Shown in pieces: positions 5,701 through 26,448 of a DNA stretch of 32,896 bases. The notes beneath the pieces were generated by a model. The model had not been told where the DNA came from. It worked only from the letters and a program-made list of their open reading frames with translations, and searched no databases. Position 1 is the first letter of the stretch. Every line of letters begins with the position of its first letter. A program made the position numbers and the translations under genes. Source of the stretch: Desulfovibrio sp. (lineage in GTDB: Bacteria > Desulfobacterota > Desulfovibrionia > Desulfovibrionales > Desulfovibrionaceae); NCBI GenBank assembly GCA_031288535.1, contig JAITRF010000134.1, positions 1 through 32,896 of the forward strand, read 5' to 3'.

Positions 5701-5792
5701 AGGGCGCGCTTTTGCCGCGGACGCCCATGCTCAAGCGCAGGACGCAATTTTGCGCTGTATGTGAAATAAGGCTTGCCGCAAAGGTCAAGGCC

Positions 5793-7958: not shown

Positions 7959-7980
7959 CGTCCGATTGCAAAAATAGTTT

Positions 7981-8085
7981 TAGAGCGTTTTGTCGTTGAA
8001 AGTATCTTTCCGATAAATGCTCTGGCGTTGCGAAGCATTGCTTCGCAACGCCCGCGAGATTGGCATAGGCGGGCTTTGCCCTCTG
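7981..8085 (+). repeat. Modular repeat family R3, copy 1
   Basis: A 43-base module starting TAGAGCGTTTTGTCGTTGAA and ending AAATGCTCT is followed by a perfect hairpin (GGCGTTGCGAAGCA 8024-8037 / TGCTTCGCAACGCC 8039-8052), then CCGCGAGATTGGC and a GGCGGGCT stem. The same order of modules occurs inverted at 27780-27893, but there the hairpin has a different sequence. The element fills most of the gap between the otsAB and GH15 genes. Confidence 0.7.
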
Positions 8086-8176
8086 TAAGTGTTACACGTA
8101 CCAGTCGCCGCAAAACATTTAAGGGTTCGCAGTAGTTGCTTTTGCGGGCAAACACTGAAATCGACCGGAATTTATC

Positions 8177-9970
8177 ATGCCAGATCTGGACTATGGGGTA
8201 ATAGGCAACTGCAGGACGGCCGCACTGGTCTCAAAGAGCGGCGACATCCGCTGGCTCTGCCTGCCGGACTTCGACAGCGCCGCTGTTTTCGCGTCCATCC
8301 TTGACGCGGAAAAGGGCGGGCATTTCGGATTCAGCCTGTCCGGCGAGCACTCCTGCTCGCAGTCGTACATAGCGCAGACCAACATACTGCGCACGCTTCT
8401 CGTCACGGAAAACGGAGTGGCCGAGGTGCTGGACTTCATGCCGCGCTACCGCGTTTCCGACTCGGACTACCACATGCCCCCGGAGATATACCGGCTGCTG
8501 CGCCCTCTGGTCGGCAAGCCGCGCCTTGGCGTCGTCTATGCGCCGGCGCTGAACTACGCGAGGGAGGCGGTCCGCCACGAAAAGCGCGGCGGCTGTGTGC
8601 TGAGCTACTCCCTGTGCAACTCGAACAACAACATATACCTGTATTCCAGCCTCGATCTCGACGCTGTCCTCGAGGGCCGCGAGTTCACTCTGGAAAATGA
8701 CGAATTTCTGCTTCTTTCCTACCACCAGAAGCTGGTAGGCATTACTCTGGAGCACGTCAACCTCGAGCTTGAGCGGACAAGGGTCTACTGGCTCAACTGG
8801 TCGCAGCGTTCCGTAACATATCAAAAATACCGGGAGCAGGTTTCACGCAGCCTGCTGGTGCTGAAACTCATGACCTTCGAACAGACCGGGGCCATTCTCG
8901 CCGCCCTCACCACCAGCATCCCCGAGACGATCGGAGGGGAGAGGAACTGGGACTACAGGTACTGCTGGCTGAGGGACGCGTCCATGTCCATGGTCACTCT
9001 GCTGGAGATGGGGCACCCGAACGCCGCCAGGCGTTTTTTGCGGTTCATCAGGCGCATCCTGCGCTCGAAACAGGACAGCTTCCAGGTCATGTACGGAATT
9101 CGCGGCGAACGCGTGCTCACGGAAGAGCGTCTTTTACATCTGGCCGGGTTTGAGAATTCCAGGCCCGTACGCGTCGGCAACGCCGCTTACGCCCAGAAAC
9201 AGAACGATTCCTTCGGCTACCTTCTGGACGTCATGTACAATTATTACCGTTTTTTCGGCGGGTCCCCGGATGACATCGAAGAGATGTGGGAGATCGTGAA
9301 AAAGATAATCAGCACCGTGCTGGAGGACTGGCGCAATCCGGACCACAGCATCTGGGAATTCAGAGCCAGGAAGGACCATTTCGTATTTTCCAAGGTCATG
9401 TGCTGGGTGGCTCTGGATCGGGGGGCGAAGATCGCCGAGTTTTTCGGGTGCGGGGACGAGCGCGCGAGCTTCGCCGCCGAGGCCGAGGCGGTGCGGAACG
9501 AGGTGTTCGCCAAAGGCTGGAACGAGGAATTGCAAAGCTTCTCCCAGGTGTACGGGAGCGCGGAAGTTGACGCTTCGCTTCTGCTCATGGAGCAGTACGG
9601 CTTTGTAAACGCAAGCGACGAGCGTTATGTGAAAACCGTGGACCGGGTGAAAGAGAGGCTTTTCCACAATGGCCTCATGTACCGTTACCGCAACGACGAC
9701 GATTTCGGGCGGCCGGAATCGGCCTTCACCATCTGCACCTTCTGGCTTGCGCGGGCGCTTTACGTGACGGGGCGAAAAGAAGAGGCCCTGGCCGTTTTCG
9801 GCAATGTCCTCGCCCATTGCAACCATGTCGGCCTTTTCAGCGAGGACCTGGATTTTGAGACGAAGTGGCAGCTCGGCAACTTCCCGCAGGCCTATTCGCA
9901 TCTGGCCCTTATCGAAACGGCTTCGCTCCTGAACGAGGGCAAAAGCTGTCCCCGCTTCATCACGCCCTGA
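8177..9970 (+). CDS. GH15 family glycoside hydrolase (trehalase/glucoamylase-like)
   Basis: This 597-residue, probably cytoplasmic enzyme belongs to the bacterial GH15 family, which includes glucoamylases and trehalases. The N-terminal beta-sandwich begins with the typical DYGVIGNCRTAALVSKSGDI. The (alpha/alpha)6 domain carries NWDYRYCWLRDASM (from Asn257), then SRPVRVGNAAYAQKQND, and IWEFR with Glu394. Near the C-terminus the conserved LGNFPQAYSHLALIE block follows an acidic stretch. No signal peptide is seen. Its position directly after the trehalose-forming enzyme makes trehalose, or a trehalose/maltose-type glucan, the likely substrate; this is inference from context. The start at 8177 has only a weak ribosome-binding site, but the N-terminal motif fits the family start. 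Confidence 0.9.
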   Translation: MPDLDYGVIGNCRTAALVSKSGDIRWLCLPDFDSAAVFASILDAEKGGHFGFSLSGEHSCSQSYIAQTNILRTLLVTENGVAEVLDFMPRYRVSDSDYHMPPEIYRLLRPLVGKPRLGVVYAPALNYAREAVRHEKRGGCVLSYSLCNSNNNIYLYSSLDLDAVLEGREFTLENDEFLLLSYHQKLVGITLEHVNLELERTRVYWLNWSQRSVTYQKYREQVSRSLLVLKLMTFEQTGAILAALTTSIPETIGGERNWDYRYCWLRDASMSMVTLLEMGHPNAARRFLRFIRRILRSKQDSFQVMYGIRGERVLTEERLLHLAGFENSRPVRVGNAAYAQKQNDSFGYLLDVMYNYYRFFGGSPDDIEEMWEIVKKIISTVLEDWRNPDHSIWEFRARKDHFVFSKVMCWVALDRGAKIAEFFGCGDERASFAAEAEAVRNEVFAKGWNEELQSFSQVYGSAEVDASLLLMEQYGFVNASDERYVKTVDRVKERLFHNGLMYRYRNDDDFGRPESAFTICTFWLARALYVTGRKEEALAVFGNVLAHCNHVGLFSEDLDFETKWQLGNFPQAYSHLALIETASLLNEGKSCPRFITP

Positions 9971-10083: not shown

Positions 10084-10425
10084 AGAAGACATCCGGCATA
10101 ATGTTTGCATTAGTCCTAGAAAAACTCTAGAATCTGGACATGAACACACTCACCTCTCTTGCATGGCTCAAGGGTTTTCGAGCCATCCGCACAAGATACT
10201 GCCAACGACTGTGCAATTACTTAGCTATGGTGCAATTTGCCTGCGCAATTATTCTTTTTCGAAGAATTGCTGTTTATCTGCAGTAATTGTGCCGGATATC
10301 TTCTACGTTCGGGACGGACGACCCCGGCCCCCCTCATTTGCGCGCCGCGTCTCAAATCATAACTTTCTTCTTTATCCTGATAAATATCCCCGGCATTCGG
10401 CCGATAAATATGTACAGAGGTGTTT
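10084..10425 (+). promoter_or_regulatory. AT-rich upstream region with palindromes
   Basis: The base composition drops in GC here, between two GC-rich genes. Visible structure includes CTAGA/TCTAG (10116-10130), ATGGCTC/GAGCCAT (about 10163-10186), three GCAATT direct repeats (10213, 10232, 10245), and an ATTCTT/AAGAAT palindrome near 10249-10266. These probably form the control region of the following gene. AGAGG at 10416-10420 is its ribosome-binding site. I cannot assign a specific regulator. Confidence 0.4.
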
Positions 10426-12378
10426 ATGTCTATGTGGGGCAGCCTGAGCAGCATACTTAACACAAGCAGCATCGGGACCGTATGGCAACCCAAATCCAAC
10501 CGCATACAGGTCGGCCGCGATGTGGGTGCTCTTTCCGCGACAGGCTTCTGTGGCGGGCCTGATCGCAACAGGGTCCTCGGGCAGGGTGACGATGTGACGC
10601 TCAAGTCCCGGTGGCTTTTCGACTTCGTTAAAGCCAAGACCGAATCCGGCGGCACGGTACCCGACTTTCGCGAACTCTCCAAAGTGATCAAGGAATTCGG
10701 TGAGACCGGCTTTGCCTCGCCCAGTATGCTGAAAGGCGTCGACGGCACGGTGCTCCAGCAGAAAGGCGACTATGTCGTCTCTTACAACGGCGGCGGGCTC
10801 CTGGTCTACAAAAAGAACGCTGAAGCAGGCGAGTTTACGCAAGTAACCGCCGTATCGGGCAAGCAGGACATCAGGATCGCCTGGGACGGCAACGGCGAGC
10901 CTCAAATCCTGACGGGCGGCGCGGCCCTCACCAACGGCGTTCTGGCGGCCCAAGGGGAAAATGAGTTCCTATTCCGCGCCTCCAAGGCCGATGTTGCCGC
11001 CGGCAAGGGAACCACGGTCTTTAACGCATCGTTCGCGGAGGGAACGTATTCCGGCGGCGACAATGTGACGTACCTGGGCCGTTACGCAGGCGGCATCTTT
11101 ACCGAAACCACGGGCAAGATCACCTTTGCCGGATATTTCAGCGGCGCCTCTTTTGAAAAGCTCACCGGGGACAGCATTTTTTCCGGCGTCTTTACAAATG
11201 CTTCCGTGACCCTTGAAAAGGGCAAGAGTACGTTCAGCGGATATTTTTCCGCCTCCGAGATTCAGGCAGGCAACAACGGCAGCACGGTAAACGGCCTTTT
11301 CATGGATGCCTGCATCGTCAAGGGCGGCGATGGAGACGACAGTTTTTCCGGCCGGTTCATCGACGGCGAAGTGGACGGCGGCAAGGGAGACGACAGTTTC
11401 GGCAACACGCAGTCCATGAACCCGGAAATACTGGCCTGTCAGACTGACAACGAAACCAGAGTCTACAGTGGGCTTGCAGCGGATTTCGTCAATGCCACCG
11501 TTAACGCGGGAGAGGGCAGCGACACCTTCGAGGGCGTCATGTGGGGCGGCGCCCTGAACCTGGATGAGGGCGAAAACACCGTTCGCGGCATGTTCGGTGA
11601 AGCAACGGTCAACGGCGGCAAGGATAACGACGACATCCATGCTGCCTACAGTTCTATGAGCTTCTTTACTACGGGCCTGGGCGACGATACGGTTACTCTG
11701 GTCACCGCCGATCAAAGTTCGGTGACCACGGACGAGGGGACCAACCTTGTCACTATGGGCCAAAACAACCCCACACCGGGCGACCACACATGGCAGACCA
11801 GGGACGAATATTTCTCTAAAAGCCGCCCCATGGAAACCGGCGAGTTGCGGCACAATACCGTGAACACGGAAAAAGGCGACAACACCGTGGGCATCCATAA
11901 CGGGGAGTCCATCGTGGCCGTTCTCAACGGTAATGAGTACGAAGAAAAGACCGTGGGCCGGAAAGCGGACGACGCCGGAACCGCAGAAGGGCCGTCTTCC
12001 CGGGGAACCGCTGAACAACCTTCCGTGCAGAACGCCGCTTCTCCCATAATGCCGCAAGCTCCCGCCCTACTTGACACTGCCGGACCGCAAGCCGCCGGAG
12101 ACGCTGAAAACGGCGTGCAGACCTCCCCCTCGGCGGATGAAAGAACCCTACGCTATGCCATCGGGCGCTACCTGAACGTGTACGGTTTTGAACCGCTTGC
12201 GGGCGAGACCCCGGCCGTGACCGTCCAGACCGACGGTGAATCGCGGATCTTTAACGGTGTGGAACGACACAACACCTTTGAGGACAACGAAGAAAACCCC
12301 GGCATGATGCGGGTCATTCGCCGCTACAACGGCTTCGGCTCTTTTTCCTGGGACAGGTGGACGCGCCTGCGGGCATAA
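10426..12378 (+). CDS. RTX-like beta-roll repeat protein of unknown function
   Basis: I do not recognise a named family for this 650-residue, acidic, Gly/Asp/Thr-rich protein. Residues ~1-190 are non-repetitive. Residues ~196-490 form tandem repeats of about 18 residues (pattern xxTFxGxFxxAxVxxxxG), which become calcium-binding RTX-type nonapeptides in the middle (GGDGDDSFS near 300-308, GGKGDDSFG near 318-326, GLGDDTV near 417). The C-terminal ~160 residues contain a Pro/Ala-rich linker followed by a compact segment ending in an aromatic/basic tail. There is no N-terminal signal peptide, which would fit type I secretion, but no type I exporter is nearby. The ATG at 10426 is preferred because GAGG lies five bases upstream; GTG 10420 and ATG 10432 are alternatives. 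A secreted adhesin or structural protein is possible. Confidence 0.8.
   Translation: MSMWGSLSSILNTSSIGTVWQPKSNRIQVGRDVGALSATGFCGGPDRNRVLGQGDDVTLKSRWLFDFVKAKTESGGTVPDFRELSKVIKEFGETGFASPSMLKGVDGTVLQQKGDYVVSYNGGGLLVYKKNAEAGEFTQVTAVSGKQDIRIAWDGNGEPQILTGGAALTNGVLAAQGENEFLFRASKADVAAGKGTTVFNASFAEGTYSGGDNVTYLGRYAGGIFTETTGKITFAGYFSGASFEKLTGDSIFSGVFTNASVTLEKGKSTFSGYFSASEIQAGNNGSTVNGLFMDACIVKGGDGDDSFSGRFIDGEVDGGKGDDSFGNTQSMNPEILACQTDNETRVYSGLAADFVNATVNAGEGSDTFEGVMWGGALNLDEGENTVRGMFGEATVNGGKDNDDIHAAYSSMSFFTTGLGDDTVTLVTADQSSVTTDEGTNLVTMGQNNPTPGDHTWQTRDEYFSKSRPMETGELRHNTVNTEKGDNTVGIHNGESIVAVLNGNEYEEKTVGRKADDAGTAEGPSSRGTAEQPSVQNAASPIMPQAPALLDTAGPQAAGDAENGVQTSPSADERTLRYAIGRYLNVYGFEPLAGETPAVTVQTDGESRIFNGVERHNTFEDNEENPGMMRVIRRYNGFGSFSWDRWTRLRA
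11011..11895 (+). repeat. Coding tandem repeats of about 18 residues
   Basis: About a dozen units of 18-19 codons are visible. The first group (residues ~196-290) carries hydrophobic T-F-x-G-x-F patterns with few acidic loops. The later group carries GDD-type loops. Eighteen residues equals one turn (two nonapeptides) of an RTX beta-roll, so alternate half-turns appear to lack the calcium-binding consensus. Confidence 0.65.
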
Positions 12379-12543: not shown

Positions 12544-12929
12544 CTAATCCTGTGGACAAAATGATATCAAATCAAGCCCAAGATTTTTAAAATGTTTGTT
12601 ATTACCAGTATAGAGCTTTAATCCATAGTGCATGGCACTTGCCGCAATCAGAGCATCATCCGTTTCCAGTCCGTCACTGAGGGCATGAGTCGTCATCAAT
12701 TTCCAGGCAAGATTGCTGATTGCCTCATGTAGCGGCAATATTCGAAAGCTCATAACAATCAGCCAACTTTGAAGCTTCTCCAATTCCTGCTTGTTTCGTA
12801 CGCCCTCAATCAACTCCATACAGGAAATTACGGATAGTCCGCGAGATTGAGCATCTACGCGCTTATAGTATCAAGGGCGCTGATTTTACCCCGTAAAGCC
12901 CAGATAAGGATATCCGAGTCAAACAGCAT
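12544..12929 (-). pseudogene. VapC-like PIN-domain toxin, frameshifted
   Basis: The toxin would be a PIN-domain ribonuclease of about 128 residues. Translation from ATG 12929 gives MLFDSDILIWALRGKISALD and then a stop at 12855-12857. A second frame, open from about 12875, supplies VDAQSRGLSVISCMELIEGV and runs to the stop at 12544. Joining the frames between about 12855 and 12877 restores a normal PIN domain. It includes the acidic residues in LFDSD, MELIEG and ETDDALIAA. The shift equals one missing or two extra bases, with no homopolymer at the site. The start overlaps the antitoxin stop by 11 bases, a typical toxin-antitoxin arrangement. A sequencing error cannot be excluded. An internal ATG at 12819 could yield only a 91-residue C-terminal fragment. 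Confidence 0.75.
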
Positions 12930-13230
12930 CGGCTGCACCGTAAAGATGACGACGACGGGCGGAGCGTTGTTTCCTGATCCAAGCGGACGGATCGGTCATG
13001 TCTTCCCTGTCGGCCCACATGCCGAATGCCGGATGGTTTTCCGGAGAATCTTCATAAACGGAATGCGCCGGTTCTCCGGACTTCGTTACTTCATTCCAGA
13101 GAGGGAACTGCCCGGATTCGACAATATGTTCCAGCGTTATGCGCACAGCGTCCTGAAGAGACAAACCCAGATTATGCAACACCGCATCGGCTTTGACTTC
13201 AATGTTGGGATCAATTTCGACAGTCAGCAT
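12919..13230 (-). CDS. RelB/DinJ-type (VapB-like) antitoxin
   Basis: This small cytoplasmic protein of about 103 residues would bind DNA through an N-terminal ribbon-helix-helix and neutralise the adjacent PIN toxin. The N-terminus reads LTVEIDPNIEVKADAVLHNL, followed by GLSLQDAVRITLEHIVESGQ and FPLW, a clear RelB/DinJ pattern. The C-terminal half (WADREDMTDPSAW then a basic ARRRH stretch) would be the toxin-binding tail. The open frame extends to 13314, but I chose ATG 13230 because homology begins there. Its stop overlaps the toxin start. If the toxin is dead, the antitoxin may persist as an autoregulator or simply be decaying. Confidence 0.75.
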   Translation of the reverse strand: MLTVEIDPNIEVKADAVLHNLGLSLQDAVRITLEHIVESGQFPLWNEVTKSGEPAHSVYEDSPENHPAFGMWADREDMTDPSAWIRKQRSARRRHLYGAADAV

Positions 13231-13316
13231 AGCTTCGCCGTATGTTTCCGGAACAGATACCACAGGACATTTACTGTACGAAAGCAAAGTAGCTGCTTCC
13301 GGGGTCTGCGTCAATC

Positions 13317-16213: not shown

Positions 16214-17347
16214 CTATTCTCCGCCGCGAATGGCCGCGTACGGTTCCAGAGAACGCGCCCGCAAGGCCGGGTACAGGGCCGCCAGCACGCCTACGGCCAC
16301 CGTCAGGAGCAGGATCAGGACCATCCTGGCCAGGGCGAAGCCCATGGATGACAAAGCGGAACCTTCGCTAGGGACGGCGCCGGCCGCCGCCAGCCATGCC
16401 GCCGAGCACACGATGCCGAGAAGGCTCCCCGCCCCCGCGAGCAGAGCGGCTTCGCCCACAATCAGCCTGAAAACGAAGGCGTTTTCGGCGCCCATGGCTT
16501 TCAGCAGGCCGAATTCCCGCCTGCGCTCATGGACCGTCAGGGCAAACATGGCGCCTGTAACCAGAAAGACCGCAAAAGCCACAAAGACCGTGGCGATACG
16601 GAAACCGCCGCCTTGCAGCAGGCCGTGCAGCTGATCGTTGATGGTTTTGAGCATTTCCGGGCGGGCGATGACCTCGACCCGGGCGATGTTCGTTTCCAGC
16701 ATGTTGACCGTAAAATCCGGAAAGGCGTCTTTCCGCAGACGGACCAGAAGCCAGGAAGGGTCCGGGATTGTTTCGCCCGGCACAGGAAAAAAGATCGCCG
16801 TATCCAGAAATGTGCCTGTTTCCCGCAGACGGCCCGCAATCGAAAACTTCCCGCCGTCCACCTCCAGGACGTCGCCGGGAACCTTTCCCGCCCCGACCCG
16901 CGCCCCCAGCACGATTTCTCCGGAATCTCCGCGCCATTCTCCGGGCGCCTTCCCTTCCAGCCAGGGCAGGACGACAAAGTCGGTTGCCGGAGCGAAACTG
17001 ACGAGGGTCGCCAAAACGTCCCCCACGCGCGCTTCGCCCCTGTATTTCTGAGGAGTCACGACGTCAACGTCGGAAAACGTCTTCAACTGCTCCGCCGCCT
17101 CCCCCGGCACCACGCCCCGGACCGGAGGTCCCTTGGCCAGATCGACTTGTCCGGTCTCTTTTGTTCCCGTCGGAACAAGGGCCAGATCCGCTCCCGTCAG
17201 CAGGCGGTTGCGCTCAAGTTCTCCCTGGATGCCGCCGGACGTGAAAACGGCCGTCAGGGCCATGGTGACCGCCAGGGCGACGGCAAGAACGATAAAGACG
17301 TTGTACGCCTTGTGTCCTTTCAGGTTTTTCAGTGCCAAGTTCCACAT
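16214..17347 (-). CDS. FtsX/MacB-type ABC transporter permease (last gene of operon)
   Basis: This 377-residue inner-membrane subunit has one N-terminal membrane segment (~17-37), a large periplasmic MacB-type domain (~40-255), and three C-terminal segments. The conserved cytoplasmic loop reads HERRREFGLLKAMGAENAFV, and the protein ends with ALYPALRARSLEPYAAIRGG. It is similar in design to the permease at 19678-20886, and both probably share the single ATPase at 18976-19671. Such complexes usually do mechanotransmission or extract lipoproteins and periplasmic substrates rather than classic import. Within this operon a role in assembling or maintaining the copper or heme protein is possible, but that is inference. 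It is 41 bases after the BNR-propeller gene. Confidence 0.9.
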   Translation of the reverse strand: MWNLALKNLKGHKAYNVFIVLAVALAVTMALTAVFTSGGIQGELERNRLLTGADLALVPTGTKETGQVDLAKGPPVRGVVPGEAAEQLKTFSDVDVVTPQKYRGEARVGDVLATLVSFAPATDFVVLPWLEGKAPGEWRGDSGEIVLGARVGAGKVPGDVLEVDGGKFSIAGRLRETGTFLDTAIFFPVPGETIPDPSWLLVRLRKDAFPDFTVNMLETNIARVEVIARPEMLKTINDQLHGLLQGGGFRIATVFVAFAVFLVTGAMFALTVHERRREFGLLKAMGAENAFVFRLIVGEAALLAGAGSLLGIVCSAAWLAAAGAVPSEGSALSSMGFALARMVLILLLTVAVGVLAALYPALRARSLEPYAAIRGGE

Positions 17348-17388: not shown

Positions 17389-18555
17389 TTACCAGACGGG
17401 CTTCCGGGAATCAGGCGAAGCCCGCCTTCTGCTCCGCCGGACCAGCAAAAATACCGCGACCGCCAGGACCGCGACCGCCGCAAGGCCGTACCGGACAAGA
17501 GGAGGGACATCGTCTCCCGCGCCGGGCAAGGTTGCGATGTTCGCATCCGTGTAGGATAACAGGCCGTATGTCGTGCCGGCAAGAATGACCGGAGGTTTTC
17601 CCGGCAGGACGTAAACCTTGTGCAGGAAGGGGTTGTCCAGGCCGGTGTTGATATCCGTCCAGGTCGCGCCCCTGTCCGTGCTCCGGTACGCCCCGCCCCA
17701 GGCCCCGGCGTAGACCACGCCCGGATACTGCGCATGCGCGGCGAAGGAAAAAATGGTGATCGTCAGCAGGCCGGTTTCTTTCCAGGTTCTTCCCCCGTCC
17801 ACCGTCCGGAAGGCGCCTCCGTTGGACTGGCCGACGTAAAAATCCGTCGGGGTGGCCGGATGGTACGCCCCCGCCAGCACGACGTCCGGGTCTTCCGGGT
17901 CAATGTACAGGGAGAGAACGCTCAGACTGCTCAACCCCTCGTTGACGTCGATCCAGGAGACCCCGCCGTTGCCGCTCTTGAAAACGCCGGCGCCGCCCGT
18001 GCCGGCGAACAGGTACTGGGGATTCCTGGGATCAATGGCGATGCAGTTGACATTGACCGCGCGCCTGAACCCGGAGGACATGTGCCACTGTTTCCCCCCG
18101 TTGGTGCTGATGGCTACTCCGTCCTGTATGCCCACATAGAGGAGATTGGGGTCCTTCGGGCTTATGACGATGCAGCGGACGTACAGGTTGGGAAGCCCTT
18201 CATTGAGAGACCGCCAGGTGCTTCCGCCGTCAAGGGTTTTGAAAATCCCCAGGCCCTCATAGCCGACGTATATTTCCTTGCTGTTGAGATAATTGACCGC
18301 CACGGAATTGGGCGGGATATCCCCCGGCAAATCCGCGCCGATGCCCGTCCAGGTATTCCCGCTGTCAAGGCTCTTCTTCAGACCCTGGGACGTGACCGCG
18401 TAGAGCGTGGAAGGCCGCGCGGGGTCGCCGGTCAGAGAAAGGATATGCACCGCGTCCAGGGCGATTTTGTTCCAGGCGTTATCCCCGGCCGAAGCCGGAG
18501 CAGGAGCGGCGCACAGAAAAACGCAAAACGGAAGGATGGTGAATATTCTGGTCAT
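17389..18555 (-). CDS. Membrane-anchored BNR/Asp-box beta-propeller protein
   Basis: The 388-residue protein has a Sec signal peptide (residues 1-23), a beta-propeller with at least six Asp-box repeats (SLDSGNTW, TLDGGSTW, STNGGKQW, SGNGGVSW, TVDGGRTW, STDRGATW), and a C-terminal membrane helix (~350-368) followed by a basic tail. It is related in fold to sialidase/YCF48/sortilin-type propellers, but sialidase catalytic residues are not evident. YCF48-type propellers act in cofactor-protein assembly, which fits this cluster. ATG 18555 has AAAGGA seven bases upstream; the frame extends further, but without a signal peptide at the N-terminus. It lies 10 bases after the NTF2-like gene. It could take the place of NosD as periplasmic scaffold; that is a hypothesis. 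Confidence 0.85.
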   Translation of the reverse strand: MTRIFTILPFCVFLCAAPAPASAGDNAWNKIALDAVHILSLTGDPARPSTLYAVTSQGLKKSLDSGNTWTGIGADLPGDIPPNSVAVNYLNSKEIYVGYEGLGIFKTLDGGSTWRSLNEGLPNLYVRCIVISPKDPNLLYVGIQDGVAISTNGGKQWHMSSGFRRAVNVNCIAIDPRNPQYLFAGTGGAGVFKSGNGGVSWIDVNEGLSSLSVLSLYIDPEDPDVVLAGAYHPATPTDFYVGQSNGGAFRTVDGGRTWKETGLLTITIFSFAAHAQYPGVVYAGAWGGAYRSTDRGATWTDINTGLDNPFLHKVYVLPGKPPVILAGTTYGLLSYTDANIATLPGAGDDVPPLVRYGLAAVAVLAVAVFLLVRRSRRRASPDSRKPVW

Positions 18556-18565
18556 CCCGTTTCCT

Positions 18566-18979
18566 TTATGGATGGATAATCTTCCATTCCCGTTTGACGC
18601 GGACCAAATCCATATTGGAATTGGAACTGTACGGGCCAAACCACAGGGGGACGACAACCTTGGTCTCCACAACGGCGGTGTCGTCCTTGATGGTTTCTCC
18701 CGTTACTTCCAGTTGCATGTCCGGGGAGTACATGGAGACCCTGTCGATAAACTGGTTGTAAGAATTGTTGTAATGCCGGATGCTGACAAAGCCGTAGGCT
18801 TTTTTGTAGTCCCTGCTTTTCAGGGCCGCAAAATATTCAGCGATCACCTGCCGGGGAGAAACGTCGGGAAGTTTGACGTGATCGAGATAATACCGCATCC
18901 CGAAAATTCCGGCGAGGACGACATGAAAGGCGCAAACGGCCATCAGAACTGTTTTTCTGGTTTTCTTCATCATGCTCAT
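18566..18979 (-). CDS. Small membrane-anchored NTF2/DUF4878-like protein
   Basis: This 137-residue protein has one N-terminal membrane helix or uncleaved signal (~10-30) and a soluble domain. The domain begins SPRQVIAEYFAALKSRDYKK AYGFV, an arrangement typical of NTF2-like folds, where a helix-rich start is followed by beta strands (TVVETKVVVPLWF-like). It would face the periplasm. No catalytic motif is seen. Its start overlaps the ATPase stop by four bases (ATGA), which implies translational coupling to the transporter. A role as a small accessory or substrate-recruiting subunit is likely but unproven. Confidence 0.7.
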   Translation of the reverse strand: MSMMKKTRKTVLMAVCAFHVVLAGIFGMRYYLDHVKLPDVSPRQVIAEYFAALKSRDYKKAYGFVSIRHYNNSYNQFIDRVSMYSPDMQLEVTGETIKDDTAVVETKVVVPLWFGPYSSNSNMDLVRVKREWKIIHP

Positions 18980-19671
18980 GATGCCCCGCTCTTTGCGCCT
19001 TTTGGAGAAGATTCCCCCTCATAGGGGAGCACCTGCTGATTTTTCAGGAGGTAGGGCGTCCCGAAGGAGGAATAGTCCAGAGCGTGGGTCACCATCACGA
19101 CGAGGACCCCCTGCCTGTTGATGCGCTGGAAAAGGCCCATGATCTCCGCTTCGGTCGTCTCGTCCAGGTCGCCGGTGGGTTCGTCGGCCAAAATGACGGA
19201 GGGGCGGTTGATCATCGCCCTGGCGATGGCCACACGGCGTTGCTGTCCCCCGGAAAGCTGGGAGGGGTAGGCGTCCTCCTTGCCGGTTATCCCGACCATC
19301 CCCAGAAGCGACAGGGCGGATTCCCTGTCTTCGCGGTCAGGGGTCCTGCCGCTGAAGGCGATGGGCAAAAGGACGTTGTCCAGCACGCGCAGGGTCGGAA
19401 TCAGACTGGGGAACTGAAAGACAAAGCCGAGCTTCCGGTTTCTCAGGGCCGCCAGATCAGGCTCGGACAAGCGCCAGATGTCCACGTCGTCAATGAACAC
19501 CTTTCCTTCATCCGGTCTGGTCAAACCGCCCATGATGCTGAGCAGCGTCGTTTTTCCCCCTCCGGAACGCCCGGTGACAAGGACAAAGGCGGCGTCCTCA
19601 ATCCGCCAGTCTATCCGGTCCAGCACAGTAAGGTCCTTATATCGCTTGCCGATATTTTCCAACCGGATCAT
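18976..19671 (-). CDS. ABC transporter ATP-binding protein (LolD/MacB type)
   Basis: This 231-residue cytoplasmic ATPase has Walker A GRSGGGKT (34-41), a Q-loop at about Gln86, signature LSGGQQRR (139-146), Walker B VILADEPTGDLD (from 159) and the switch His near 196. The PTGDLD form and overall similarity place it with the LolD/MacB/FtsE group, which pairs with FtsX-type permeases. Two such permeases lie in the operon, one six bases upstream and one three genes downstream, so the complex could be a heterodimer. It occupies the position NosF would hold in a classical nos cluster, but it is not the NosF family by its motifs. Confidence 0.93.
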   Translation of the reverse strand: MIRLENIGKRYKDLTVLDRIDWRIEDAAFVLVTGRSGGGKTTLLSIMGGLTRPDEGKVFIDDVDIWRLSEPDLAALRNRKLGFVFQFPSLIPTLRVLDNVLLPIAFSGRTPDREDRESALSLLGMVGITGKEDAYPSQLSGGQQRRVAIARAMINRPSVILADEPTGDLDETTEAEIMGLFQRINRQGVLVVMVTHALDYSSFGTPYLLKNQQVLPYEGESSPKGAKSGAS

Positions 19672-19677
19672 CGCTGC

Positions 19678-20886
19678 TCATTCTCCTCTTCTGATGGCTT
19701 CATAGGGCTCAAGACGGCTTATGCGCAGGGCCGGGTACAGTCCGCCCAAGATTCCGGTGATCAGCGAGGCGGCCATGATCAGCAGGACGATGGCGAGAAA
19801 ATCCCGGTTGCCCGGCCAAACGTATACGTTGCCGATCATCCCGGTGATCAGGTCCTTGCTGAAATAGGTCGCGCAGGCTCCGATCAGCACGCCGATCGCG
19901 CCGCCAATCCCGGCGATGCACGCCGCTTCCAGGATAATGAGCCGAAAAACGACGCCGCGCCCGGCGCCCATGGCCCTGAACAGGCCCAGTTCCCGCATCC
20001 GCTGCCGGACGGACAGGGCGAACAGGCTGCCCACCAGACCGGCGGCCAGAAAACCGAAAATGCCGCCGGCCAGAAGGAGGGCGTCCGCCAGACCTTGCAG
20101 CCGCAGGCTGAAAAAACGGGTCAGACGGCCGGAGGTCAGGGCCTTCACCTCCGGAACGTTCCGCTCGATGTCTTCCGCCACAGCCGCGGGGTCCGTCCCC
20201 TCCTCCACCTGGACCAGAATGGTGGAAACCTGGTCCTGGCGGATGGGGACAGGGTAGAGCGGCGATTCCCGGACCAGCCGATAGGCGGTCTCCATGGTAA
20301 GAAAGACCGTATAATCGGCGCCGAGTCCCGTCGGCTCCAGAATACTGGCCACGGTAAAAGGCTTGCCCATGAAGATCAGCCTCTGCCCGATGGCTTTCGC
20401 CGGAGTGCCGACCACGGCGGAAATGACCTTGGCCCCCACGATGATCTGGTTGTTTCGCTGCCTCTCTCCGGTTTTTTGCAGAACCCAGGGGGCGATGGTG
20501 AAATCCCGCTCCGGGTCGTAGCCGATCAGGGTCACCTGCACCACGCAGCAGGCCGCGTCCAGGCTGCGCAGGTAAACCTGCGCGCAGGTCCGCTTCACCC
20601 CCGGGATCTGCCGCACCTGCGCTTCCAGAGAAGAAGGCATGTAAAAAGTGGTGGGTTCGCCGGAAATCAGGGCCGCCAGCGCCTCTTCCCGGGACTGTGC
20701 CGGTACCGCCACGATATCGGCCCCCATGCGTTCCCTGGAGGTTTGCAGGGTGTCCTGAATGCCTTTGGAGAGGATGGCGGCCGGAAACAGGGTCGCGCAG
20801 GCCAGGACGATGCCGCCGATCATCAGCCAGGCGCGAAACGGCCTGCGCCGGAGATTCTGCCGGACCAGATACAAAAGCTGTCGCAT
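19678..20886 (-). CDS. FtsX/MacB-type ABC transporter permease
   Basis: The 402-residue inner-membrane protein has an N-terminal membrane segment (~20-40), a large periplasmic domain (~45-270), and three C-terminal segments. It has the RQRMRELGLFRAMGAGRGVV loop and a GGLYPALRISRLEPYEAIRR end, both diagnostic of the family. The periplasmic domain contains two adjacent cysteines in a CCVV context and a further Cys ~15 residues before, unusual for this family and possibly metal-binding or disulfide-forming. It lies 68 bases after the YtkA-like gene and six before the ATPase gene, so it is the natural partner of that ATPase. Confidence 0.92.
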   Translation of the reverse strand: MRQLLYLVRQNLRRRPFRAWLMIGGIVLACATLFPAAILSKGIQDTLQTSRERMGADIVAVPAQSREEALAALISGEPTTFYMPSSLEAQVRQIPGVKRTCAQVYLRSLDAACCVVQVTLIGYDPERDFTIAPWVLQKTGERQRNNQIIVGAKVISAVVGTPAKAIGQRLIFMGKPFTVASILEPTGLGADYTVFLTMETAYRLVRESPLYPVPIRQDQVSTILVQVEEGTDPAAVAEDIERNVPEVKALTSGRLTRFFSLRLQGLADALLLAGGIFGFLAAGLVGSLFALSVRQRMRELGLFRAMGAGRGVVFRLIILEAACIAGIGGAIGVLIGACATYFSKDLITGMIGNVYVWPGNRDFLAIVLLIMAASLITGILGGLYPALRISRLEPYEAIRRGE

Positions 20887-20954: not shown

Positions 20955-21404
20955 TCACTGCCCGATGTCAAAATCAAAGGACTGCCGCAAGACCCGGCCG
21001 TCGTCGTCCCCGAACGTCGCCCTGATCTGCCAGTACCCTCCATGCCCGTACTGGACCAGCGCTACATACCGTCCGTCCTTGTCCTCCGCAAACTGCAATT
21101 CCAGGGGATAGCCCTCCATCTGCATGTCGGGCATCCGCACGTCCCCGGTCACGACCTTGCCCTGCACCGGATTGCCGGCGGCGTCCCGCAGGACCAGGCT
21201 GACCTGGGCCACGCCGGGCCGGGCCGGGGTGGTCAGTATCCAGGTAATCCCCTGAGATTTCTTTTCCACGGTTATCGCCGGGGAAGACGCCCGGTCGGCC
21301 GCCGCGAAACCCGATGCGGCCGGAAAAGCGGCGGCGGCCCAGCACAAAAGGCAGAAAACAGAGAAAAGGCGCCGCCGGTGTTTCATTCCACGAATCATCT
21401 CCAT
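20955..21404 (-). CDS. YtkA/FixH-like periplasmic protein with Met-rich motif
   Basis: The 149-residue product has a Sec signal peptide (basic KHRRR then hydrophobic residues to ~35) and a single Ig-like beta domain. The motif VRMPDMQMEGYP (Met91, Met94, Met96) matches the MPxMxM pattern of YtkA-like domains, which is suited to copper binding; a histidine follows at 121. Family members occur with cytochrome oxidase and copper-enzyme assembly genes. In this operon it lies directly after two redox genes and before the transporter, so it may supply copper to the NosZ-like protein, as NosL does elsewhere. This role is inference. ATG 21398 is a better-spaced start than ATG 21404. Confidence 0.7.
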   Translation of the reverse strand: MEMIRGMKHRRRLFSVFCLLCWAAAAFPAASGFAAADRASSPAITVEKKSQGITWILTTPARPGVAQVSLVLRDAAGNPVQGKVVTGDVRMPDMQMEGYPLELQFAEDKDGRYVALVQYGHGGYWQIRATFGDDDGRVLRQSFDFDIGQ

Positions 21405-21437: not shown

Positions 21438-22658
21438 TCACCAACTCGGCGCATCGGCGTCCATCATCCAGAAATACTGCGGAAACCGGTAATGCAGGGC
21501 CAGCCACTTGTTGTCATGCCGGGTGGAAAAGGCGTCAATCGTTCTCGGGGCGGCGGCGAAGGACTGGCCGAAGTCCTTTTTGTGGCAGCTCGCGCAACTC
21601 CAGATGGGGGTGGTGCTGCAGGTGTGATAGGTGACGACCGTAAAGGCGAGGAATACAGTTAGACTGACGGGGAAAACCAGCCATCTGATCCGCTTTTTCC
21701 GGGCGTTTCCCCGATCCGCCAGAGGCAGCAGGCACAGCCCCAGAAGCAGGAGCGCGGGAATCCAGAAGACACCGAGCATTTCCATGTCTTCCTGGAAATA
21801 GCGGGTCACCTGAAAAAACATCATGTACAGCCAGTCGGGCTGAGGCACGGAGGAGGTGGTGACGGGGTCGGCGAAGTCCTGCTTCTGGATCCCGAAAGCC
21901 GCCAGGGCAAGGAGCAGCAGGGTCGTCCCCGCCACCGCGGCCGCGGCGCGCGGGAACCGCCCGGAAAAGAACCGCCCGGGGCGCGCCGGTCCGGTTCTTT
22001 TGTCGCCATGTGCGGGCCCGTTCGCATCGGGCGGCGCATCTTTTTCACGGAACCCCGGCCTGCCGCGAAGCGCGGGGAAATGGCCGCCAAGGCAGACCCC
22101 GGCCAGCAGGGGGAGCACAAGGGTATGCAGGGCGAACCACCTGCCGACCGGCACAACGCCGTTCACAGTATCCGAAAACAACAGCCACTGCAGCGCGCCC
22201 GCGAACAGGGGCAGGCCGTCAATCCAGTGCCCGATGGTCTTCACCGTCCAATAGGCCCTGAAATCCCAGGGCAGCAGATAGCCGGTCACGGTAAAAGCCG
22301 CGGCCAGCGCCAGCAGGAGGATGCCGGTACACCACTTCCGTCCTCCGCGGCGCCATGCCCCGCGGAAGATCACGATCAGAAGATGCAGCGTCAGGAAGGA
22401 CATCAGGACAAAGGCGCCCCAGCGGTGGAGGGATCGGAAAAATCCGCCCGCCCGGACCTGCGTTTCGATAAATTCGACGCTCGTCCAAGCGTCCGCCGGG
22501 GTCGGCTGAAAAAACATCGCCATATAGATCCCGGACGCGGCCTGAAACAGGAACACAAGAACGACAAGGCCGCCGGAACGGCCCAGGAAACAGACCAGAT
22601 CGTGCCCCGCCCCGCCGGTCTTTCCGCCGGCGGGGCGGGGAGCGCATTCTCTGTCCAT
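21438..22658 (-). CDS. Full-length cytochrome b with C-terminal c-type heme motif
   Basis: This 406-residue integral membrane protein contains both the b6-like and subunit IV-like parts of cytochrome b. Heme ligands are His78/His92 and His178/His193, on two helices with the usual 13 and 14 intervening residues. GYLLPWD is present at about 126-132. The quinol-site PEWY motif is altered to PDWL near 274-277. Uniquely, the last ~60 residues are periplasmic and carry CASCH (355-359), a c-type heme site, so electrons could leave directly to a partner such as the NosZ-like protein encoded just upstream. ATG 22658 is chosen because residues before it are a shadow of the nosZ end. The two genes are 19 bases apart. 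Confidence 0.88.
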   Translation of the reverse strand: MDRECAPRPAGGKTGGAGHDLVCFLGRSGGLVVLVFLFQAASGIYMAMFFQPTPADAWTSVEFIETQVRAGGFFRSLHRWGAFVLMSFLTLHLLIVIFRGAWRRGGRKWCTGILLLALAAAFTVTGYLLPWDFRAYWTVKTIGHWIDGLPLFAGALQWLLFSDTVNGVVPVGRWFALHTLVLPLLAGVCLGGHFPALRGRPGFREKDAPPDANGPAHGDKRTGPARPGRFFSGRFPRAAAAVAGTTLLLLALAAFGIQKQDFADPVTTSSVPQPDWLYMMFFQVTRYFQEDMEMLGVFWIPALLLLGLCLLPLADRGNARKKRIRWLVFPVSLTVFLAFTVVTYHTCSTTPIWSCASCHKKDFGQSFAAAPRTIDAFSTRHDNKWLALHYRFPQYFWMMDADAPSW

Positions 22659-22677: not shown

Positions 22678-24249
22678 TTACGCCTCGACGATAAACCAGC
22701 CGCGCATCTCCAGATGGAGCGGTCCGCAGAAATAGGAGCAGAACATGGCGAATTTGCCGGGCCTGTCGGCGACGAACTCGAAGATGATCGACTTGCCCTG
22801 CGGGACGCCCCAGTTGGTCTGCAGACCGTATTCGTTGATGATGAAGCCGTGAACAGGGGCGGGGTCATTGGTCAGCCCGGTGGCCTTGTCGATATTCGTC
22901 AGGATGACGCGTACCTTGTCGCCCTTTTTCACAGTCACGTTATCCGGCTTGAAGCCGTAACTGAACTCCTGCAGACGGACTTCCACCACCCCGCCGTCGA
23001 TCCTGGTCACCCCCGGGGCGCCTTTGTCCTCGGGCACCAGCTTGGCGTTCACGTTGGGGTCTTTATGCGGAGCCCAGATGGAGGCGTGGCCTTCCGGAGG
23101 CAGATCGGCGTTGAGGTATCCCCGCACGACGTCCGCCTTGATGATTTTGGCGTTATGCGGTTCGGGCACTGTGGGCGCCCTGGCGATGACCTCTTCCGTG
23201 GCCAGATCGATCAGCTCCACGTTGGTCGGGTCCTGGTTGGAAATGGAACCGGCGAAAAGGCCCGTGGAGTATTTGTTCCAGATGGTGAGGTACTTGCTGT
23301 CCGGCGTGATCTGCAGGTGGCCCGGCCGGTAATGGACGGGGATCTTTTTCACCATTTCCATCTTTTCCAGGTCAATCTTGGCCACGGCGTTGTCCACGAA
23401 CAGGGTCGTATAGGCCCATTTCCCGTCGTTGGTGAAGACGGTGTGCAGAGGACCGGGGGCCGGGCTCTTGTTGAAGCCGGGGACGGCGGGGGTCATGTCG
23501 ATCTCTTTGATCACCTCCATCTTGGCGATGTCGATGACCGGGACGTTTCCGGAAAGCTTGCCGGCGACAAAGGCCAGTTTGCCGTCAATGGTCAGGTCTA
23601 TGCCGTGGGGATTTCTGCCCGCCGGGATGAACTTGGTCCGTTTGAAGCCGTCCACCTCGATCACATGCACGCCGGAACGGTAATAGTCCGTGGCCAGACA
23701 ATATTTTCCGTCATGGGTGACCACAAGATAGTCCGGGGCTGATTCCTGCCCGTCGGAGACGTCGATTACCTCGACCTTGCCGCTGGCGATGTCGATTTTG
23801 GCCATTTTCCCGGACAATTCGCCTGTGGCGAAAAGGGTTTTCCCATCGGGGGTGATGGCGATGTGGTGCGGCCCGAAGGGCGCGGGGATGTTGATCTTGC
23901 GGATCAGCTCCTGGGTGGAGATATCCACGACCCCGACGGAGGAATCCCCCTTGTCGTTGATAAAGACGTACTTGCCGTCCGGGGTCCCGTTGGTGCCGGG
24001 CTTGTTGGAGCCGGAAAAGACCGGCTCGTGGGTGTCCACGCCCACCGGGATCAACTTGATGGTCCGCAGGCTGGGCAGGCCGATGACCTGCAGGGTTCCG
24101 GAAATTCCGCCGGAAGCGAAAATGATGTATTCGTCCTTGTCCTGGGCAAGTCCGCCCGGCTGGGCGGCGCCGGCCTCCAGGCAGGCTGCCGTGAGAAAAA
24201 GCGCGACCAGCAACGCGACGGCCGGATGCAGATTTTTTTTGTTTTTCAT
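22678..24249 (-). CDS. nosZ: Divergent NosZ-like (nitrous oxide reductase) multicopper protein
   Basis: NosZ reduces N2O to N2 in the periplasm using a catalytic CuZ cluster in a seven-bladed propeller and an electron-entry CuA site. This 523-residue protein has a Sec-type signal peptide (as in clade II), YVTN-like blades (HHIAITPDGKTLFATGELSG) and a cupredoxin tail. CuA ligands are complete: His467, Cys504, Cys508, His512, Met515. CuZ-type histidines are seen at 74, 128/129, 215 (NPHG), 269 (GPLHT), 311 (PGHL) and 365 (EPHN). The usual DxHH is DTHE (72-75), so one ligand is Glu, while an extra His appears at 128/129. It is about 110 residues shorter than ordinary NosZ. GAGGGAG precedes ATG 24249. 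Membership of the family is strong; N2O as substrate is likely but untested. Confidence 0.88.
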   Translation of the reverse strand: MKNKKNLHPAVALLVALFLTAACLEAGAAQPGGLAQDKDEYIIFASGGISGTLQVIGLPSLRTIKLIPVGVDTHEPVFSGSNKPGTNGTPDGKYVFINDKGDSSVGVVDISTQELIRKINIPAPFGPHHIAITPDGKTLFATGELSGKMAKIDIASGKVEVIDVSDGQESAPDYLVVTHDGKYCLATDYYRSGVHVIEVDGFKRTKFIPAGRNPHGIDLTIDGKLAFVAGKLSGNVPVIDIAKMEVIKEIDMTPAVPGFNKSPAPGPLHTVFTNDGKWAYTTLFVDNAVAKIDLEKMEMVKKIPVHYRPGHLQITPDSKYLTIWNKYSTGLFAGSISNQDPTNVELIDLATEEVIARAPTVPEPHNAKIIKADVVRGYLNADLPPEGHASIWAPHKDPNVNAKLVPEDKGAPGVTRIDGGVVEVRLQEFSYGFKPDNVTVKKGDKVRVILTNIDKATGLTNDPAPVHGFIINEYGLQTNWGVPQGKSIIFEFVADRPGKFAMFCSYFCGPLHLEMRGWFIVEA

Positions 24250-24410: not shown

Positions 24411-25103
24411 TCATTTTTTTCGGGAAAGATAGGCGGAGACCGCATGCCTTTCCGTATCGCTCAGGGGGACGAGCGACATGATGGTCGTCTGGCTGACGAT
24501 TTGCGGTTGAAGAATAACCCGCTCGATATAGGCCCGGTTCGTCCTTGAGCCGATTTGGGTCAAATCGGGGGCGAAAAAGCCTCCTTTCCCGTCCATGCCA
24601 TGGCAGGACTGGCAGAACCGTCTGAACAGATCCTGCCCCTCGGCGATCTGCTCCCCGGTTATCGGCGGCAAAACCATCCTGTAGCCGTGCCGTTCGTCCT
24701 CCAGGATGGAGACCGCGGTCAGGCCGGCGACGGAAAACGCCACGGCCAGACATACGGCGGCGGCGACAGGCCGCTTTCTTACGTCGACGGTCTCGCCCTT
24801 GTCCAGAAAGGGCAGAAGAAGCAGCAGGACAAAAACCAGGGCGGGCAGAACGCATGTGCCGACGACGGTCAGAGGGCCTTCAAAATATTTCAGCAACTGA
24901 AAATAAAATAAAAAGTACCATTCGGGCCGGGGGACGTAGGTGACGTCGCCGGGGTCGGCCATTTCTTCCAGAGGCGCCTGCCAGACGAAGGAAAGGGCGA
25001 CCAGAACCGCCAGGACCGCCAAGGCGGTCATGCATTCAAAAAACATCTGGTGCGGATAAAAAAAGGACCGGTCTCTTCCTCCGGAGGGGGAATCCGTCTC
25101 CAT
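24411..25103 (-). CDS. qcrC: Cytochrome b subunit IV fused to cytochrome c (QcrC-like)
   Basis: This 230-residue membrane protein joins a PetD-like subunit IV (three membrane helices at ~24-42, 80-100, 112-132, with the quinol-site PEWY at 60-63) to a periplasmic cytochrome c domain. CQSCHG is at 164-169 and a probable Met ligand at 209 (TIMSL). This architecture is that of menaquinol:cytochrome c reductase QcrC of Bacillus and similar anaerobe complexes. It pairs with the b6-type gene immediately upstream. The METDS start at 25103 is supported by AAAGGA six to seven bases upstream; an earlier ATG at 25142 has no good site. Confidence 0.92.
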   Translation of the reverse strand: METDSPSGGRDRSFFYPHQMFFECMTALAVLAVLVALSFVWQAPLEEMADPGDVTYVPRPEWYFLFYFQLLKYFEGPLTVVGTCVLPALVFVLLLLLPFLDKGETVDVRKRPVAAAVCLAVAFSVAGLTAVSILEDERHGYRMVLPPITGEQIAEGQDLFRRFCQSCHGMDGKGGFFAPDLTQIGSRTNRAYIERVILQPQIVSQTTIMSLVPLSDTERHAVSAYLSRKK

Positions 25104-25167: not shown

Positions 25168-25836
25168 CTACAGGGGACGGGAAATGCCCTGCCGCCGCAC
25201 CATAAAGAAATGGGCCGCCAGGAATATGACCAGAAACGCCGGCAAAAACATGACGTGAATGACGAAAAAGCGGACCAGGGTGAGGGCGCCCACCTCGCTG
25301 CCGCCCCGGAGGGCGTCGGCCAAAAAACCGCCGGCAAGAGGAATGCTCGCGACCATGTTCACGCCTACCGTCGTCGCCCAATAGGCTTTCTGATCCCAGG
25401 GGAGCAGGTATCCGGTAAAGCAGGACCCCGCCACCAGCAGCAAAAGGAATATGCCCGCGATCCAGTTCAGTTCGCGCGGTTTCCTGTACGACCCGGTCAG
25501 AACGACGCGCAGCATGTGCAGGGAAACCATGACCACGGCCGCCGTCGTGCCCACCCGGTGAATCCCCCGGATGAAGCCGCCGAAGGCGGTTTCGTTCTCG
25601 ATGTAGTTGACGCTGGCGTAGGCGTCCTCGGGCGAAGGCACATAATAGAGCATAAGAAAAACTCCGGTCAGCGCCTGAAGCAGAAGAATGAAAAAGGCGA
25701 TGCCGCCGAAGCAGTACATGAACGCGGAAACGTGCTTCGAGGGATCGGCGTGTTCGGGAACCTCATGGTCCGCGATGCTTCTGATCAGCGGAGTGAGGTT
25801 CAAGCGTTCGTCGAGGAACTTGTAAACCCTGCTCAC
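25168..25836 (-). CDS. qcrB: b6-type cytochrome b (QcrB/PetB-like)
   Basis: This 222-residue, four-helix membrane subunit binds two b hemes via His93/His107 and His194/His209 and forms the quinol-oxidising core with the subunit IV fusion. The motif FMYCFGGI with Cys42 matches the cysteine that anchors the extra heme c(n) in b6-type proteins. GYLLPWDQKAYWA is conserved at about 142-154. I chose GTG 25836 because homology (SRVYKFLDERLNLTPLIR) begins there and the codon follows the Rieske stop with a one-base gap. A TTG at 25872 would overlap the Rieske gene by 35 bases. Confidence 0.93.
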   Translation of the reverse strand: MSRVYKFLDERLNLTPLIRSIADHEVPEHADPSKHVSAFMYCFGGIAFFILLLQALTGVFLMLYYVPSPEDAYASVNYIENETAFGGFIRGIHRVGTTAAVVMVSLHMLRVVLTGSYRKPRELNWIAGIFLLLLVAGSCFTGYLLPWDQKAYWATTVGVNMVASIPLAGGFLADALRGGSEVGALTLVRFFVIHVMFLPAFLVIFLAAHFFMVRRQGISRPL

Positions 25837-25837
25837 A

Positions 25838-26329
25838 TTACGCGTCCCGGATGAAGATTTTATCGGCTTCAACCTTTACCGCCAACTGCGCCAGCGGTTC
25901 TGGAGGGGGGCCTTCCAGCACCCTGCCCTGCGCGTCAAAGGCGCCCCCATGACAGGGGCAGGTGAAGCGCTGCGTGGCGGAATTCCAGTCCACACCGCAA
26001 CCCAGATGGGTGCATCTGTTGGTCAGGGCCACGAGTTTGCCGTCGTCCTGCCTCACCACAAAGGCCATCCGGCGCGCTTCCGACATCCGCCAGCCGTCTT
26101 TGCGCACGTAGCGGTAGGTGATCTTCGAGGGTTCACCCTGCCGCAACTGCCCCAGATCCGCGATTTCAATCCAATCCGCCCGGCTCTTCTTCAAGGCCGG
26201 AGAAAGAAAAAAACCGGCCAGGGGGATACCTAAACCCAACCCGAAAAGACCGGCCAGCGCTTTGATGCCGTTGGCGAGGAACCTGCGTCTGGGCGACGGA
26301 TGCTTTTCTTCGGAACAAACCACGCGCAT
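25838..26329 (-). CDS. qcrA: Rieske iron-sulfur protein (QcrA-like)
   Basis: The product carries the [2Fe-2S] cluster of the quinol oxidase complex and passes electrons from menaquinol to cytochrome c. Cluster motifs are CTHLGC (106-111) and CPCHGG (124-129). The N-terminus has a Tat-type signal/anchor (PRRRFL followed by a hydrophobic helix, ~12-44), as expected for a Rieske protein exported folded. ATG 26329 is one base after GGAGG, too close for use. GTG 26323 is spaced seven bases from it and may be the true start; a TTG at 26371 extends the frame further. It is the first gene of the operon. Confidence 0.93.
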   Translation of the reverse strand: MRVVCSEEKHPSPRRRFLANGIKALAGLFGLGLGIPLAGFFLSPALKKSRADWIEIADLGQLRQGEPSKITYRYVRKDGWRMSEARRMAFVVRQDDGKLVALTNRCTHLGCGVDWNSATQRFTCPCHGGAFDAQGRVLEGPPPEPLAQLAVKVEADKIFIRDA

Positions 26330-26369
26330 GCCTCCGTGTCGTCGTTCTTGCGCCAGCCTGCGATTTTTC

Positions 26370-26448
26370 AAATAATACGGACGTGTTATTTGGAATCCGA
26401 CTTATGCGGATTCTATATTTACTAATAACAGGAGGGAGGAATAGTCAA
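26370..26448 (-). promoter_or_regulatory. Candidate promoter and operators of the respiratory operon
   Basis: On the minus strand TTGACT (26448-26443) is followed after about 18 bases by TAGTAA as a possible -10. Immediately downstream lie two palindromes: GAATCCG/CGGATTC (26393-26399 and 26407-26413, perfect 7-bp arms) and AAATAATAC/GTGTTATTT (26370-26378 and 26383-26391, 8 of 9 bases matching). Their position just downstream of the likely start of transcription suits a repressor or redox/NO/copper sensor. Neither matches the FNR (TTGAT-N4-ATCAA) or CRP consensus. Confidence 0.45.

Follow-up and report, generated by a model that had tools for sequence, protein, structure and literature searches.

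A protein encoded in a 32,896 nt stretch of Desulfovibrio sp. DNA, in the following called the window, resembles nitrous oxide reductase (NosZ) along its length, but has Glu75 at the second histidine of the DxHH motif. The question raised by this locus is whether such a protein is a nitrous oxide reductase and, if so, of which kind. Enzymes of this class convert the greenhouse gas N2O to harmless N2. We consider it very likely (probability about 0.92) that the protein, designated L-NosZ here, belongs to the clade III (lactonase-type) nitrous oxide reductases and has the electron route and the sink or detoxification role proposed below.

Gene, Domains, and Family Assignment

The sequence-only reading had placed the gene at positions 22678–24249 and had given no strand. 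These coordinates were correct, and the frame was found on the minus strand, where it runs intact from an ATG at 24249 to a stop codon ending at 22678 and encodes 523 aa. A plus-strand reading of the interval was rejected, as it gave a shadow frame interrupted by a stop codon and no gene. The translation of the minus-strand frame contained every motif quoted earlier at the same numbering: D72-T-H74-E75, G126-P-H128-H129, NPHG (213–216), GPLHT (266–270), PGHL (309–312), EPH (363–365), and a CuA site, H467...C504-S-Y-F-C508-G-P-L-H512-L-E-M515, with the full His, Cys, Cys, His, Met ligand set. The N-terminus looked by eye like a Sec-type signal peptide and was followed by a seven-bladed propeller (approximately residues 39–375) and a CuA cupredoxin domain (approximately residues 420–523). 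Chains of solved N2O reductases have 581–646 aa. The blades had been described as lactonase/YVTN-like, and the Lactonase family (PF10282) indeed matched with an E value of 1.6e-18, together with YNCE and YVTN repeats. The presence of PF10282, PF18764, and PF13473 in one protein identified a fusion of a lactonase-like propeller with a CuA cupredoxin domain.

The NCBIfam model NF052460.1 ("clade III lactonase-type nitrous-oxide reductase") matched L-NosZ with 876.1 bits (E 5.2e-264, cut-off 700) over positions 1–479 of 480. The models for clade II (TIGR04246, Sec) and clade I (TIGR04244, TAT) gave 239.6 and 197.6 bits, respectively, and both failed the cut-off of 625. A phmmer search against solved N2O reductases gave an E value of 1e-45 and, as judged by sequence comparison, the likeness to these enzymes is far above chance. 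A phylum-wide survey for clade II yielded a single usable row, which formed a long branch in the tree; the split between the L-NosZ rows and the clade I/II rows had full support there (100/100). The suggestion that the protein belongs to neither clade I nor clade II but to a lactonase-type clade was therefore right. Clade III was first described by He et al. (2025, Nature 646:152–160), and N2O-reducing activity of clade III is reported in papers citing that study. We concluded that the Desulfovibrio protein is a new member of an already published enzyme class with its own HMM.

Active-Site Ligands and Predicted Structure

We aligned 17 L-NosZ proteins: the Desulfovibrio protein, eleven close relatives (81–94% identical), and five distant members (42–45% identical) that a whole-genome search found in other families of the same phylum. 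D72, H74, E75, H128, H129, H215, H269, H311, and H365 were invariant in all 17, as were the CuA residues C504, C508, H512, and M515, down to 42% identity. Aligned jointly with NosZ of clades I and II, the proteins had E75 at the second histidine of DxHH. H128 corresponded to the single clade I/II histidine (PsNosZ H178), and H129 was an extra histidine at a position where clade I has glycine. These alignments indicate that DTHE is no local oddity and is normal for clade III. One histidine is shifted from the DxHH pair to the next blade (DxHE...PHH versus DxHH...H), and the total remains seven.

In the N2O reductase of M. nauticus, CuZ is bound by seven histidines, with one blade supplying two and another none (PMC11573801). 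In P. stutzeri NosZ, metalation was lost when any one of six of the seven CuZ histidines was replaced (PMC11573801), and for this reason the paired His-to-Glu and Gly-to-His change probably represents compensation.

The AlphaFold model of L-NosZ had a moderate mean pLDDT of 75.5, with values mostly of 80–97 in the propeller blocks and below 50 in the CuA loops 455–466 and 507–513. According to strand positions in the model, the CuZ histidines are located close to where the equivalent strand begins in six blades, one of which carries two, as in the M. nauticus enzyme. The top 50 PDB matches of the model in Foldseek were all N2O reductases (E 2e-32). The earlier idea that seven histidines could still build a cluster was thus backed by family-wide invariance and by the histidine positions in the predicted fold.

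A sister L-NosZ branch (L094, L095, L097, L098, and L099 from genomes G093, G281, G055, G100, and G212, respectively; 42–45% identical) scored 690–779 bits, straddling the NF052460 cut-off. It retains DxHE and all seven CuZ histidines. In all five members, Met replaces the first CuA histidine (H467 in the Desulfovibrio protein, PsNosZ H583), and the C-terminal tail is longer; a CuA site lacking its first histidine would be worth a structure.

The Eleven-Gene Block

L-NosZ is the fourth of eleven genes that run in one direction with gaps of -4 to 161 bases (Table 1). The order of the block was unchanged in relatives with long enough contigs, which comprised Desulfovibrionaceae-like MAGs and Sporomusa acidovorans (Bacillota), and L-NosZ was the most conserved block member in nearly all of them. 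The YtkA/FixH-like gene was not detected in the blocks of Sporomusa (L009) and of one MAG relative (L007). Homologues of the DUF4864-like protein were also found beside L-NosZ of the sister group (E 1e-6 to 1e-9 in L095/L097).

In the neighbourhoods of the sister branch (L112–L116), which differ from this arrangement, L-NosZ is accompanied by c-type cytochromes and by propeller proteins that resemble virginiamycin B lyase. A Gld-like ABC set was seen by eye in L112. The cytochrome b pair recurs in L112 and L116, and a DUF4864-like protein was found by search in L113 and L115 and by eye in the others. Features of the window outside the block are listed at the end of Table 1.

Table 1. Positions of the L-NosZ gene, its motifs, the block members, and other features of the window.
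Feature	Position	Strand	Evidence
L-NosZ, 523 aa	22678..24249	-	NF052460.1 876 bits; Pfam Lactonase, nos_propeller, Cupredoxin_1; Foldseek
DTHE motif (D72 T73 H74 E75), counterpart of clade I/II DxHH	24025..24036	-	17-member alignment and joint alignment
GPHH motif (H128, H129)	23863..23874	-	17-member alignment and joint alignment
First CuA His, H467	22849..22851	-	
CuA loop C504 to M515	22705..22740	-	
Rieske 2Fe-2S protein	25838..26371	-	PF00355; upstream in relatives too
Cytochrome b6-type N-terminal half	25168..25839	-	PF00033, E 2.5e-50
Cytochrome b C-terminal half fused to monohaem cytochrome c	24411..25103	-	PF00032 and PF00034
Second cytochrome b, C-terminal CASCH haem motif	21438..22658	-	PF00033 and PF00032; downstream in relatives too
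YtkA/FixH-like exported protein	20955..21404	-	PF13115, PF05751
MacB/FtsX-type ABC permease 1	19678..20886	-	PF12704, PF02687
ABC transporter ATPase (LolD/FtsE-like)	18976..19671	-	PF00005
DUF4864-like exported protein, 137 aa	18566..18979	-	PF16156 weak, E 0.004, below cut-off
BNR/sortilin-type propeller protein, C-terminal TM segment (by eye)	17389..18555	-	PF15902
FtsX-type ABC permease 2	16214..17347	-	PF02687
RelB/DinJ-like ORF (possible toxin-antitoxin pair, 12544..13314)	12919..13314	-	By eye
PIN-domain-like ORF, downstream of the RelB/DinJ-like ORF	12544..12819	-	By eye
ORF of 652 aa, repetitive, Gly/Asp/Asn-rich	10420..12378	+	
Fused trehalose-6-phosphate synthase/phosphatase (first of two in 5712..9970)	5712..7958	+	By eye
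Glycoside-hydrolase-15-like ORF (second of two)	8177..9970	+	By eye

Distribution, Transfer, and Selection

L-NosZ of Sporomusa acidovorans was about 80% identical to the Desulfovibrio protein, compared with 42–45% for the L-NosZ proteins of other families in the host's phylum. In the host's own family, no other sampled genus had an L-NosZ above the cut-off. Among 398 Bacillota genomes and 28 genomes of Sporomusa's order, Sporomusa acidovorans was the only one with a member. Because of the high identity across phyla, the lower identity within the host's phylum, and the lack of an L-NosZ above the cut-off in the other sampled genera of its family, a transfer between phyla is the simplest reading. 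The forks inside the Desulfovibrionaceae/Sporomusa group were weakly supported in the tree, and we therefore claim no direction of transfer. The dN/dS ratio of L-NosZ to its relatives was 0.04–0.13, with dS to Sporomusa near saturation; the protein is under strong purifying selection.

Accessory Genes and Host Physiology

Neither NosL (PF05573) nor NosD (PF05048) gave a match in the host genome (95% complete) or in three congeners. Sporomusa had no NosL match and one weak NosD match on a separate contig. A NosD-family match is located near L-NosZ of G281, a genome of the sister branch. In P. denitrificans, normal CuZ assembly requires NosL (PMC6530538). For the host, with no match to NosL or NosD, the ABC transporter of the block is a candidate maturation factor.

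The host genome encodes dsrA and NrfA. No COX1-family protein was found in it and, therefore, no NO reductase of the cNor/qNor type was detected. As far as its gene content indicates, the host would be a non-denitrifying N2O reducer.

Proposed Function and Alternative Explanations

We infer copper loading and activity of L-NosZ, and the electron route from the functions of the families involved. The exported protein would hold a CuZ copper-sulfide cluster at the propeller hub, with H74, H128, H129, H215, H269, H311, and H365 as ligands and E75 near the cluster, and a binuclear CuA in the C-terminal cupredoxin domain. The adjoining Rieske/cytochrome b/cytochrome c complex would oxidise menaquinol and deliver the electrons, by way of its cytochrome c domain, first to CuA and then to CuZ, where N2O would be reduced to N2. 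In the sulfate-reducing host, the enzyme may serve as an extra electron sink or in N2O detoxification, and not as the final step of denitrification.

A NosZ-like protein that kept the CuZ histidines but lost or changed its catalysis, for example to copper storage or to another N-oxide, with E75 blocking normal CuZ assembly, would also fit DxHE in place of DxHH, the sensitivity of P. stutzeri NosZ to single histidine replacements, and the failure to find NosL and NosD in the host. However, the missing histidine is offset by H129, which is equally invariant, strong purifying selection acts on the protein, and it scores well over the threshold of NF052460.1, an equivalog model that bears the name nitrous-oxide reductase. 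N2O reduction by clade III was moreover described as acetylene-sensitive (PMC13274427). We regard lost or changed catalysis as unlikely.

The best Pfam match was Lactonase, as would be expected for an ordinary lactonase/YncE seven-bladed propeller that is joined to a cupredoxin domain and has a function unrelated to N2O. The Lactonase and YncE equivalog/exception models gave 22–28 bits against cut-offs of 370–500, the seven invariant histidines are in CuZ register, and the fold matches were headed by N2O reductases, which makes this alternative extremely improbable. If the protein were a clade I or II NosZ whose propeller had been truncated, the significant matches to both clade models would be accounted for; with scores of 240 and 198 bits where the models demand 625, DxHE instead of DxHH, and a position across the 100/100 branch from the clade I/II rows (one clade II row, long branch), there is hardly any chance of this either. 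Both clade I/II membership and a plain lactonase were rejected on curated cut-offs.

Termite Guts and Surveys for nosZ

The source of the L007 relative is the humus-feeding termite Neocapritermes taracua (Nt197, PMC7024585), and the remaining carrier MAGs have names that, by the names alone, resemble termite-gut sample codes. We compared the gene in silico with standard clade I and II primers. The clade II forward primer had 1 mismatch, and the clade II reverse primer and both clade I primers had 4–6 mismatches. Together with the failure at both HMM cut-offs, the 4–6 mismatches of three of the four primers supported the suggestion that surveys tuned to clades I and II could miss the gene. Clade III is new enough for surveys with such primers and models to overlook it.

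A termite-gut study (PMC12993464) quantified only nosZ1 and nosZ2, and clade I abundance and ratios already accounted for much of the N2O reduction. A share of clade III in this reduction is possible and is not required by these data. The clade III genes of Desulfovibrionaceae, at least one of which is from a termite gut, are specific candidates for N2O reducers there, and the gene block raises the concrete question of how CuZ is assembled without NosL and NosD. As a tentative and rather doubtful extension, the Sporomusa/Desulfovibrionaceae branch might mature its copper enzyme without NosL/NosD by means of the linked MacB/FtsX-type ABC transporter and exported helpers, and might account for part of the N2O sink that has been measured in termite guts and that, in the studies we found, was surveyed with clade I/II primers only.

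Comparison with Known Systems

L-NosZ shares the blade repeat pattern with the Lactonase, YncE, and YVTN seven-bladed propellers, but differs from them by its CuA domain and by scores far under their curated cut-offs. With clade I/II NosZ it has in common the combination of propeller and CuA domain, the full CuA ligand set, the alignment of H74, H128, H215, H269, H311, and H365 with CuZ ligands, and K291, which aligns with an invariant Lys unchanged through all clades. In contrast to clade I/II NosZ, Glu replaces the second histidine of DxHH, PHH stands in place of xHG, and NosL and NosD were not found together with L-NosZ in the host (95% complete) and three congeners; identity to clade I is about 28–30%. 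Compared to clade III L-NosZ (NF052460; He et al. 2025), we found no difference in the protein itself: DxHE, the seven histidines, and the CuA ligands are the same as in the close members collected.
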